The notes beneath the pieces are model-generated. The model saw nothing but the letters and a program-made list of their open reading frames with translations. It searched no databases and was not told the origin of the DNA. DNA of 17,402 nt from a bacterium (GTDB lineage: Bacteria; BMS3Abin14). A program made the position numbers and the translations under genes. Location: contig JARGFV010000051.1 of assembly GCA_029210545.1 (NCBI GenBank), positions 1 to 17,402 on the forward strand, given 5' to 3'. Shown piece after piece: positions 1,354-17,402 of this stretch (position 1 is its first letter; every line of letters begins with the position of its first letter).

Positions 1354-1755
1354 TCGCAAAAAGTCCAATCCGGGACTTTTCGTGACCCACTAATATCCTG
1401 GGGAAAGGGAAAAGCGTCGTTTTCCCTTTCCTTACGGGGACTTCTGATAATCGCAAAAGATCCTGGTGGGACTTTTGCTCAACGGGAACCGAAAAGCGTG
1501 GTTTTCGGTTCCCTCACGGGGGCTGCTGTAATATCGCCAAAGTCCGGGTAAGACTTTGGCTCAACGGGAACCGAAAAGCGTGGTTTTCGGTTCCCTCACG
1601 GATCGAACACACAGCCATTGGCACTCGATCCGGGCGCCTCTCCCAGGCGCGGCTGCTTTTGCCGGTCATCGATCCGGGCGCCCTTCCCAGGCGCGGCTAT
1701 TCATTGATTTGGGCGCCCCGCGCGGGGCGCGTTGATGACTTTTTTCGAAGTCAAC
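1354..1755 (+). repeat. Composite palindromic element, copy 1 (expanded)
   Basis: An intergenic element of about 400 bp, bounded by TCGCAAAAAGTC (1354-1365) and its reverse complement with one mismatch (1737-1748). From the left it holds an A-type hairpin (arms around 1358-1381), a B hairpin with 12-bp arms (1402-1413 with 1420-1431, loop GCGTCG), then two A-like plus C-type hairpins. The C hairpins have 12-bp arms at 1484-1495/1502-1513 and 1566-1577/1584-1595, loop GCGTGG. Two 29-bp GC-rich units follow (1626-1654 and 1670-1698, 27 of 29 identical), then an 18-bp GC palindrome (1713-1730) and the right end. Copies 2 and 3 share the left end and B hairpin; copy 2 also shares the right end. 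No transposase is present. Confidence 0.8.
1477..1601 (+). repeat. 43-bp direct repeat inside element copy 1
   Basis: Positions 1477-1519 and 1559-1601 are identical over 43 bp, 82 bp apart. Each contains the C-type hairpin with stem GGGAACCGAAAA and its complement. The identity points to a recent tandem duplication of an A-plus-C hairpin unit within the element. Confidence 0.85.
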
Positions 1756-1797
1756 ATTCTTGCTTTGAACAGATATTTCCACATTCAAACTATTGCG

Positions 1798-1827
1798 AAA
1801 AAAAAGGGCTGACCTTTCGGTCAGCCC
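1798..1827 (-). terminator. Rho-independent terminator of hppA
   Basis: GGGCTGACC (1806-1814), loop TTTC, GGTCAGCCC (1819-1827): a perfect 9-bp GC-rich stem. On the minus-strand transcript it is followed directly by eight U (A-run 1798-1805). It lies about 60 nt past the hppA stop and ends the rplY-pth-hppA transcript before the repeat element and rpsF. Confidence 0.93.
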
Positions 1828-1889
1828 CTGGGTTCTAACTGTTAACCGTAAACAGTTAACATCTTCGAAATGACGAAGTCAGCTCGAAG

Positions 1890-3899
1890 TTATTTAATCA
1901 GCGGCGTAAGGCTCGCGAACAGCGGAGCCAGCACCAGGGAAACCACCGACATGAGCTTGATGAGGATGTTCATGGCGGGTCCGGAGGTGTCTTTGAAGGG
2001 GTCACCCACGGTGTCGCCGACGACGCCGGCGTGGTGGGCGTCAGAGCCTTTGCCGCCGTGGTGTCCTTCCTCGATGTACTTCTTGGCGTTGTCCCAGGCG
2101 CCGCCCGCGTTGGACATGAACAGGGCCAGGAAAACGCCGCACAGGGTTGCGCCGGCCAGGGTGCCGCCGAGGGCTTCCTTACCCAGGACGAAGCCGACGA
2201 TGACCGGTGTGAGGACGGCCAGAAGGCCGGGTGCGATCATCTCCTGAAGGGCGGCGGTGGTGGAGATATCGATGCACCTGGCCGAGTCGGGCTTGCCGGT
2301 CCCTTCCATGATGCCGGGGATCTCGCGGAACTGGCGGCGGATCTCCTCGACCATCTTGAAGGCTGCTTTACCCACGGAAGTCATGGTCATGGCAGCGACC
2401 AGGAACGGCACGATGCCGCCGATGAACATGCCGACAACGACCTTGGGGGTGGACAGGTCGATGACCGACAGGCCGACCGCCTTGGTGTAGGCGGCGAACA
2501 TGGCGAGAGCCGTCAGGGCCGCCGATCCGATGGCAAACCCCTTGCCGATGGCGGCGGTGGTATTGCCCAGGGCGTCCAGGCCGTCGGTGATCTTCCGTGT
2601 CTCGGGCCCGAGGCCGGCCATCTCGGAGATGCCGCCGGCGTTATCGGCGATGGGGCCGTAGGCGTCCACCGACATGGTGATCCCCACGGTGGCCAGCATT
2701 CCCACGGCGGCCACGGCGATGCCGTAAAGGCTCATGGGAGCCGCCGCGTAGGCCGAGATGATGATCGCGGTACTGATAATGAGGATGGGGATGGCGGTGG
2801 ACTGGTATCCCACGGCCAGGCCGGTGATGATGTTGGTAGCCGCGCCGGTCTCACTGGACTTGGCGATATCACGGATCGGCTGGCCGGCCGTGTAGTACTC
2901 GGTGACCAGACCGATGAGGATGCCGGCCAGGGTCCCGGACAGGATGGCCCAGAAGATGCCCACCTGGATACCGGTACCCTTGACCAGAGCAAAGGCGGCG
3001 CCCAGCAGCAGGGCGGCGGCGATGAAGGTCGAATACCTCAGAGCGGCCGCGGGGGACATTTTCTCGAGGATCTTGATGGAAAAGATACCGATGGCCGAGC
3101 AGACGATGCCGGCCATGGCCAGCAGCAGGGGCAGGGCCATGTAGGCGCTGCGCATTTCGGGGAGGATGGCTGCGGAGGTGGCTGCGAGGGCGATGGTGGC
3201 GATCATGGAGCCCACGTAGGACTCGAAGATGTCGGCTCCCATGCCGGCCACGTCACCCACGTTGTCGCCCACGTTGTCGGCGATAACACCGGGGTTCCGG
3301 GGGTCGTCTTCGGGGATGCCGGCCTCCACCTTGCCGACGAGGTCGGCGCCTACGTCAGCGGTTTTTGTGAAGATGCCGCCGCCCACACGGGCGAACAGGG
3401 CGATTGAGGAAGCACCCATGGCGAAGCCGTTGATGTATTGTGCTGTCCCGGGTTTACCGAACAGGATGAACAGGATACCGACACCGATGAGCCCGAGGCT
3501 GGCCACCGATATGCCCATGACGGCGCCGCCGGCAAAAGCGACCGACAGGGCCTTGGCCTGGCCGCTCTGCGTGGCGGCCTGGGATGTCCTGACGTTGGCC
3601 CGGGTGGCGGCCTTCATCCCGAAATAGCCCGCCAGGATGGAGCACAGCGCACCGCCCAGAAAGGCCGAGGCGGTCTGCGGACCGAGCTTCCAGTACAGCA
3701 GGGCGAAGACGATGGCGATAAAACCGGCCAAGATGGTGTACTGGCGCTTGAGATAGACCATGGCGCCGTCGTGGATCATCTCGGACAGTTCGGCCATGAG
3801 CTCGGTTCCGACGGGCTGCTTCTTTATGTAGAGGAAAATCCCCAGTGCAAAGAGCAGGCCCGCCACACCAAAAAGTGGGGCAAGGTTTGTCCAGATCAT
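1890..3899 (-). CDS. hppA: Membrane-bound ion-pumping pyrophosphatase, K+-dependent type
   Basis: An integral membrane pump that hydrolyses pyrophosphate to move H+ and/or Na+ out of the cytoplasm. The 669-residue length and many hydrophobic helices suit the family. The pyrophosphate and Mg-binding motifs are intact: [11 protein letters not shown] near 182-192, the Asp-rich [16 protein letters not shown] near 208-223, [12 protein letters not shown] near 412-423, and [15 protein letters not shown] near the C-terminus. GNTTAAIGK (445-453) has Ala and Gly where K+-independent enzymes have Lys and Thr, which predicts K+ dependence. H+ versus Na+ specificity I cannot decide. Its ATG overlaps the pth stop (ATGA), with GGAGG in the last pth codons, so translation is probably coupled. 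A terminator follows. Confidence 0.96.
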
Positions 3900-16107: not shown

Positions 16108-16769
16108 GGTTTTCCCCCCCTTACAAGCCGTCCTCCTTCAAGGTGGATCACCCTTCTGCCCATGGTCCTGACGATCTCGAGGTTGTGGGTGGCTACGACC
16201 ACGGTTGTCCCCCGTGCGTTGATGTCGGTGAAAACATCCATAATCCTGCTGGATGCTTCTGAATCAAGCCCGCCGGTAGGTTCATCCGCAAGGAGAATGA
16301 TCGGCTCGTTGACGAGTGCCCTGGCTATGGCCACCCTCTGCTGCTCTCCCCCCGAAAGGGTGAGGGGGTTTGCTCTCATCTTGTGATGGATGCCGAGTCT
16401 TTTGAGCATGAGCCACACCCGTCTGCTGATGTCCCTCCTCGTCATCCCCAGGACCTCAAGGGAAAGGGCGACGTTCTCGAACACGTTGCGGTTGGGCAGG
16501 AGTTTGAAGTCCTGGAAAACGATGCCGATCTCCCGCCTCAGGATGTGGATCTTCGAAGCGGGCAGGCGCGCGATGTTGCGTCCGTGGACAAGGACCTGCC
16601 CGTTCGTCGGCCTTTCCTCGGCAAAAAGCATCTTGAGAAGGGTACTCTTCCCTGCGCCGCTGGGGCCGGTGATGAAGACAAAGTCTCCCTTGGGGATGTG
16701 CAGGTTCAGGTCCTGGAGGGCAGGAACGTCCTTCTGGTACCACTTGCTGACGTGGAAAAGCTGGATCAT
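16104..16769 (-). CDS. ftsE: Cell-division ATP-binding protein FtsE
   Basis: Cytoplasmic ATPase of the FtsEX complex, which acts with EnvC at division. The 221-residue product has Walker A GPSGAGKS (35-42), Q-loop Gln86, the ABC signature LSGGEQQR (138-145), Walker B IILLADEP (157-164) and the H-loop His195, all intact. The start ATG lies in AT-rich sequence with no visible Shine-Dalgarno site, which is unusual among its neighbours. It follows the small hypothetical gene by 49 bp and overlaps ftsX by 4 bp. Confidence 0.96.
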   Translation of the reverse strand: MIQLFHVSKWYQKDVPALQDLNLHIPKGDFVFITGPSGAGKSTLLKMLFAEERPTNGQVLVHGRNIARLPASKIHILRREIGIVFQDFKLLPNRNVFENVALSLEVLGMTRRDISRRVWLMLKRLGIHHKMRANPLTLSGGEQQRVAIARALVNEPIILLADEPTGGLDSEASSRIMDVFTDINARGTTVVVATHNLEIVRTMGRRVIHLEGGRLVRGGKP

Positions 16770-16818
16770 GAATTTTGTTTGTTATGCTTACTCGTAGTGG
16801 GCAGCAGGGGAAAGTTCA

Positions 16819-17301
16819 TCAGTCGTTATCAATCTCCGACGCCAGGTACTCCAGGATCACCTGGTCCAGATTCTTTTCGGCAGATGAATCCGGTATCGCC
16901 TGGTTCGCCGGTTTCGAGGGTATTTCGAGGGGAGGTTTCGCGGGCGCTGCCGGTTCCGGGTTCGCCGGTGCGGCGGCGGGCCTGGCTTCGGTCACGGGCT
17001 GGGCGGCACGTGGGGATGGCGTGGGCTCAACGGGGTGATGTTTGACCCCGTCAGTCGACAGGGTTCCCGTGAGGATGGCCTTGATCATCGTCCTGTGCTG
17101 GCGCTCCAGAAGGTCCCGCAGCTTGGGAAGGAAATCCACGGTGCCCAGCAGTTGGGCATAGCTGGTCTTCTTGGAGACCAGGATACGGCCACCCTGGTAA
17201 ACGAGGCTCACGAGGACGGGGTTTTCGGTGCCGCCATCCTCGGTCTGGACGTGGTAGACGACCCCCTCGTGTTTGATGTCGGTGTTATATCCTGTCAGCA
17301 T
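16819..17301 (-). CDS. Hypothetical protein upstream of ftsE
   Basis: A 160-residue protein of unknown function. Residues 1-75 form a compact, beta-rich, conserved-looking domain (GYNTDIKHEGVVYHVQTEDGG, then LVSLVYQGGRILVSKKTSY and a Leu-rich helix). Residues 86-135 are a Pro/Ala-rich linker. The C-terminus is a short helix ending in LDQVILEYLASEIDND. There is no signal peptide or membrane segment, so it is probably cytoplasmic. ATG has GGAAG about 8 nt upstream. Its position before ftsE suggests, but does not show, a link to division. I know similar small proteins from deltaproteobacteria only as uncharacterised. Confidence 0.75.
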   Translation of the reverse strand: MLTGYNTDIKHEGVVYHVQTEDGGTENPVLVSLVYQGGRILVSKKTSYAQLLGTVDFLPKLRDLLERQHRTMIKAILTGTLSTDGVKHHPVEPTPSPRAAQPVTEARPAAAPANPEPAAPAKPPLEIPSKPANQAIPDSSAEKNLDQVILEYLASEIDND

Positions 17302-17331
17302 CCTGTTGTCTTCCGTTTAACTGTAATAGGG

Positions 17332-17402
17332 TCGCAAAAAGTCCAATCCGGGACTTTTCGCTCCACGGAAAGGGAAAAGCGTCGTTTTCCCTTTCCTCAC
17401 AA
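17332..17402 (+). repeat. Composite palindromic element, copy 3 (cut by window edge)
   Basis: The left end TCGCAAAAAGTC (17332-17343), the A hairpin and the B hairpin (17367-17378 with 17385-17396) match copies 1 and 2. The rest lies beyond the window. It sits 30 bp upstream of the hypothetical gene's start, in the same orientation as the other copies. Confidence 0.85.

Follow-up and report, generated by a model that had tools for sequence, protein, structure and literature searches.

A family of modular hairpin MITEs sharing its terminal repeats with IS1182-related insertion sequences

In architecture, the nearest described counterpart of the element reported here is BOX of Streptococcus pneumoniae, which is composed of boxA, boxB units in varying number and boxC and measures 67-637 bp (PMC3049150). 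In a comparison that concerned modularity alone, both repeats show interchangeable modules, tandem expansion of the middle module, stable folds and a MITE-like character, so that BOX is a precedent for modular MITEs. The present element spans 22-568 bp and differs from BOX in that a clear 6-bp target duplication was identified, together with a helper insertion sequence (IS) family that shares the element's ends, in that its modules are single hairpins with compensatory changes, and in its unrelated host phylum. Classical MITEs (ERIC, Correia/NEMIS, RUP, Nezha) are likewise short, non-coding, high-copy and intergenic, with terminal inverted repeats and a target duplication, and their helper IS is likewise inferred from shared ends (PMC10969869, PMC2229807). 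The present element departs from them by its hairpin-chain interior, by one terminal repeat enclosing many unrelated interiors across the Desulfobacterota, and by a duplication of the form AANNTT where several enterobacterial and neisserial types have TA-dinucleotide ends (PMC10969869, PMC2229807). REP, BIME and REPIN sequences are also high-copy palindromic intergenic repeats; unlike these RAYT-linked repeats, the present element has terminal repeats and a target duplication, and RAYT is not associated with it.

The window, that is, the whole stretch of DNA analysed (17,402 bp), carries this element in three intergenic gaps, as proposed in an earlier reading of the sequence alone (hereafter the sequence-only reading). 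The end 12-mer TCGCAAAAAGTC lies at 1354, 13913 and 17332 (+), and its complement is found exactly at 14040-14051 and with one mismatch at 1737-1748, which makes five matches on both strands against 0.06 expected from shuffles and confirms the matching inverted ends described for copies 2 and 1. The limits first assigned to the element were correct for the 12-mers but not for the true ends, which lie further out, the terminal inverted repeats being about 20 bp long (GAYRGRSTCGCAAAAAGTCC) and beginning with GA(T/C)AG. Copy 1 (1347..1755, +) is an expanded form, A-l-B-a-b-a-b-e-e-GC-R. It comprises hairpin A (1354..1386, +), whose left arm belongs to the left terminal repeat, hairpin B (1402..1431, +; arms GGAAAGGGAAAA/TTTTCCCTTTCC), two tandem A-like plus B-like (a-b) units (1461..1601, +; spacing 82 bp) and a 30-bp e module present twice (1625..1698, +; GATCCGGGCGCC...CAGGCGCGGCT, spacing 44 bp). 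The a-b units share a 59-bp core that is 93% identical, with both stem arms altered to GGGAACCGAAAA/TTTTCGGTTCCC; the mix-and-match modules claimed for this copy, tandem repeats included, are present. Copy 2 (13906..14058, +) has the canonical form A-B-F-GC-R, with hairpin B at 13947..13976 (+), hairpin F at 13980..14014 (+), a GC-rich palindrome (GCGCCCCGCGCGGGGCGC) at 14016..14033 (+) and the terminal hairpin R, which includes the right terminal repeat, at 14034..14058 (+). Copy 3 (about 17325..17402, +) retains its left part only (A, B and the start of F), since the window corresponds to a whole contig (C51) and the assembly break cuts the element.

The view that the repeat is amplified, for which about five copies had been set as the threshold, is amply borne out by the 376 occurrences of the end 12-mer in the 2.72-Mb genome (241 contigs), the reversed control giving none. 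Such whole-genome counts are pattern searches, about 0.77 Mb (28%) of the genome having been sampled in detail. Of the 11 other family genomes, 9 contain the 13-mer end, with as many as 153 occurrences; none of the 86 unrelated genomes sampled has it more than once. A scan of GTDB genomes revealed the right end in at least 118 stretches, with titles mostly of Desulfobacterota/Deltaproteobacteria, and among the matches listed the elements that these ends delimit are 47-250 bp long and have many unrelated interiors. In four of these stretches (L147, L162, L183, L233) the same terminal repeats surround hairpin repeats (GTCATTGCGAGCGGAGCGAAGCAATC..., GTCATCCTGAGC...) resembling widespread bacterial ones, which gives the impression that hairpins of foreign origin were taken up as cargo. 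A second MITE type, with similar ends and a different interior (TCGCAAAAAGTCTCNTCGAGCCATTTTGCGAGG...), was noticed in the same genomes (G000 C3:44583-44705, C6:15368, C8:39098-39221 and C21:9921; G003 C1:194284 and 211091). Plasmids and phages searched for the element gave no match, and a literature search using the end sequence found no relevant paper in the collection covered.

The elements are MITEs, devoid of genes, and display the defining features of a bacterial MITE that were tested. The consensus ends of 55 paired elements read GA(T/C)AG(A/G)GTCGCAAAAAGTCC and ...GACTTTTTGCGA(GTCC/AGTC)ATC. This host-lineage set, composed of elements with full flanks from 0.77 Mb of the own genome and 0.3 Mb of the relative G003, includes 26 copies with a perfect 6-bp target duplication of consensus AANNTT, whereas shuffled pairing yields 2.0 (maximum 8 in 2000). 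The duplications were found again in an independent set from other bacteria, being perfect in 21 of 57 copies among the matches listed (shuffled 0.9, maximum 6). Where flanks in other taxa depart from AANNTT (L188, L217, L195, L233), they do so on both sides (TCCTTT, TTACTT, AATAGA, AATTAC), meaning that the pattern does not reflect mere target preference. A 2-bp duplication, the first guess, was replaced by the 6-bp one once co-variation of the flanking bases was examined, the AANNTT consensus having masked the outer four bases. About half of the copies lack a perfect duplication, both complete window copies included: the 6-mers flanking copy 1, ATCTTT (1341-1346) and ATTCTT (1756-1761), are identical at 4 of 6 positions, and those of copy 2 (AATGAA and AACCGT) do not match. 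The preferred target was also seen to extend to TCAANNTT, which resembles the junction of two adjacent copies, and copies and ISs frequently occur as neighbours (C1:15583-17422, C8:38937-39221, C19:13160-13369, L295).

Orthologous gaps vary in the presence of the element, as would be expected of a mobile repeat. The ctp-envC gap, which carries copy 2 in the window, has no terminal repeat in any of the 10 readable relatives, and in G003 and G008 its flanks align across the absent element. The rpsF-hppA gap likewise shows no full element in readable relatives, that of L333 containing two solitary right-end hairpins. Together with the copy number and with the existence of ISs bearing the same ends, these empty gaps support the earlier proposal of a mobile, non-autonomous, MITE-like repeat whose helper lies elsewhere. 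As to other features of the window, relatives also conserve a segment upstream of rpsF (1132-1210, -; AACTCCTTGCTCC...GGGGGCTGTAGCCCGAAAGGAGA), whose score against the Rfam RpsF leader RF02893 is weak (18.2 of 37 bits) and which is likely a divergent S6:S18 leader; a tRNA gene lies at 6327-6398 (-; Rfam 59.7 bits).

DDE_Tnp_1 genes were located across the family, and homologues of the own-genome copy were then searched in MITE-carrying genomes. The candidate helper is an IS of about 1.88 kb encoding an IS1182-related DDE transposase of about 560-610 aa, with intact copies in other genomes. Copy L296 (405-2296, 1892 bp) encodes a 581-aa transposase in an open frame of 583 aa and is bordered twice by ACTCAT, and copies L339 and L347 (1319-3197, 1879 bp) have AAAGTT and AATTTT, twice each. 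A perfect 6-bp duplication was found in only these three IS copies; that of L341 is 5/6, and L295 is flanked by two MITEs, with the 6-bp site alone between each of them and the IS. Compared with the MITE end, the terminal 19-mers of the ISs are identical at 14-18 positions, the best chance match in 400 bp reaching 9-14. Outside the ends no similarity between MITE and IS was found, so that the MITE is not derived from a sampled IS by simple internal deletion. The transposases score above the cut-off for Pfam DDE_Tnp_1, DDE_Tnp_1_6 and DUF772, an architecture whose DDE_Tnp_1/DUF772 core is common to the IS1182 family, and align with the greater part of the NCBIfam IS1182 model (E 4e-47); their 161-165 bits fall short of its curated threshold of 270. 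IS1272, which belongs to the IS1182 family, reportedly replaces inverted repeats without producing a target duplication (PMC5678879), in contrast to the 6-bp duplication of the helper. On account of both the score and this difference, the helper is filed as IS1182-related only.

In the own genome a single decayed IS copy was found (contig C1, about 15757-17422; ends GATGGACCCGCAATTAGTC and GACGGCATCGCAAAAAGTA), whose transposase gene (C1:15778-17370, -) lacks the part bearing the catalytic glutamate motif of its relatives. From this lone decayed copy it can be presumed that the genome no longer moves its MITEs and that the burst is probably over or slowed here. Retroviral-type (rve) transposases of the family were discarded as helpers, no terminal-repeat pair being present around any of them. 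A pair of terminal repeats 1.6 kb apart in G006 (L100) was also considered as a transposon and rejected, because it encloses a sigma-54-type regulator gene and represents two separate copies. Contig C27 of G000 (L058) contains a remnant of another IS1182-type IS (a DUF772-like fragment), which adjoins a gene for an IS200/IS605-like Y1 transposase of 144 aa.

Among 46 own-genome copies that were parsed, 22 have the form A-B-F-GC-R and four the form A-B-d-e-GC-R, while expanded forms with repeated a-b units reach 568 bp. At the other extreme, 50-bp forms consist of A fused directly to the right end, and solitary terminal hairpins of 22-23 bp carry AACGTT or AAAGTT on both sides; these reduced forms may result from deletion between short direct repeats of the arms, and the modules themselves would have originated by slippage. 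The hairpin chain is found again in other genera, where its stems show compensatory changes. For 70 canonical elements, drawn from nine genomes, the counts of two-sided compensatory cells were 19 for A, 12 for B, 42 for F and 28 for GC, against maxima of 12, 10, 17 and 15 in 500 shuffles, and hairpin R gave no excess in the same elements (5 versus a maximum of 7). The counts indicate that pairing persists and do not imply selection, since the copies are related and replication can correct palindromes. As regards transposition, the interior is best explained as passive cargo.

We consider it very likely that these data reflect a selfish MITE burst driven by an IS1182-related transposase supplied in trans, the interior being a passive chain of hairpins. 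In this model, the transposase would bind the terminal repeats of about 20 bp, excise or copy the element and join it into a six-base AANNTT-like target, which would be duplicated in the process. The enzyme would come in trans from the DDE (DDE_Tnp_1/DUF772) IS of about 1.88 kb, which shares both ends and target rule with the MITEs, and tandem duplication, along with deletion between short repeats, would make the chain gain and lose modules.

A different origin, as REP/BIME/REPIN-type repeats whose hairpins a RAYT (Y1) transposase would move in the form of single-stranded DNA, had been entertained in the sequence-only reading. High-copy intergenic hairpins would fit such a system, Y1 enzymes act on hairpins, and the genome encodes both a RAYT-like Y1 protein (C150) and the IS200/IS605-like Y1 transposase of C27. 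However, Y1 transposition leaves no target duplication, in contrast to the 6 bp duplicated here. The short repeats around the only RAYT-like gene of the genome are of another kind (TAACCCCGGTGTCAGAG), an arsR-like gene separates it from the nearest element copy, some 0.7 kb upstream, and a DDE transposase with matching ends exists. With the wrong flanks and the wrong junctions, RAYT/Y1 was rejected as helper and this origin is very improbable. The RAYT-like gene and its own repeats (TAACCCCGGTGTCAGAG / CTCTGACACCGGGCGGGATG; G000 C150, L059, around 1429-2118) probably form a separate REP-type system. An artefact of assembly or binning, by which the repeats would stem from mis-assembly or foreign contigs, might be suggested by a draft of 241 contigs, many of which end inside copies, but is hardly conceivable given that the copies occupy distinct loci with different flanks and target duplications and that nine other genomes of the family have the same ends.

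It could also be argued that the element is kept for a host function as a structured RNA (terminator, attenuator or RNase III site), mobility being secondary or past. The folds are very stable (-77 kcal/mol, z -8.1; -191.5, z -8.8), stems A, F and GC show more compensatory changes than any of 500 shuffles, and the copies are nearly all intergenic, an ORF containing 2 of the 45 scored. Against this stand the orthologous gaps without the element, the many unrelated interiors within the same ends in other bacteria and the lack of any matching Rfam family, and the stem evidence is itself weakened by replication-time correction of palindromes, which can keep arms complementary, and by the relatedness of copies, which inflates covariation counts. 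Orientation argues in the same direction: the description of the copies as sharing one orientation, opposite to the genes, is right for the window and fails genome-wide, where 14 copies in co-directional gaps run with the genes and 11 against them. A retained RNA function is consequently an unlikely explanation. Somewhat less remote, while still doubtful, is the idea that the transposase, acting on the 20-bp ends only, carries self-remodelling hairpin cassettes, whose stems would be kept paired by selection on RNA or single-stranded DNA. Because IS1182 relatives are reported to target inverted repeats, insertion at hairpins may be a route by which such cassettes are acquired, and they may serve as a regulatory or recombination part that spreads through the Desulfobacterota and the window lineage.

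A large set of intergenic repeats, in Desulfobacterota genomes and in the window lineage, is explained by a single terminal repeat together with a single target rule. Tying these repeats to a transposase group makes them annotatable and accounts for the fragmented assemblies in which they occur. Moreover, the reason for hairpin accumulation in bacterial MITEs becomes testable with this family.
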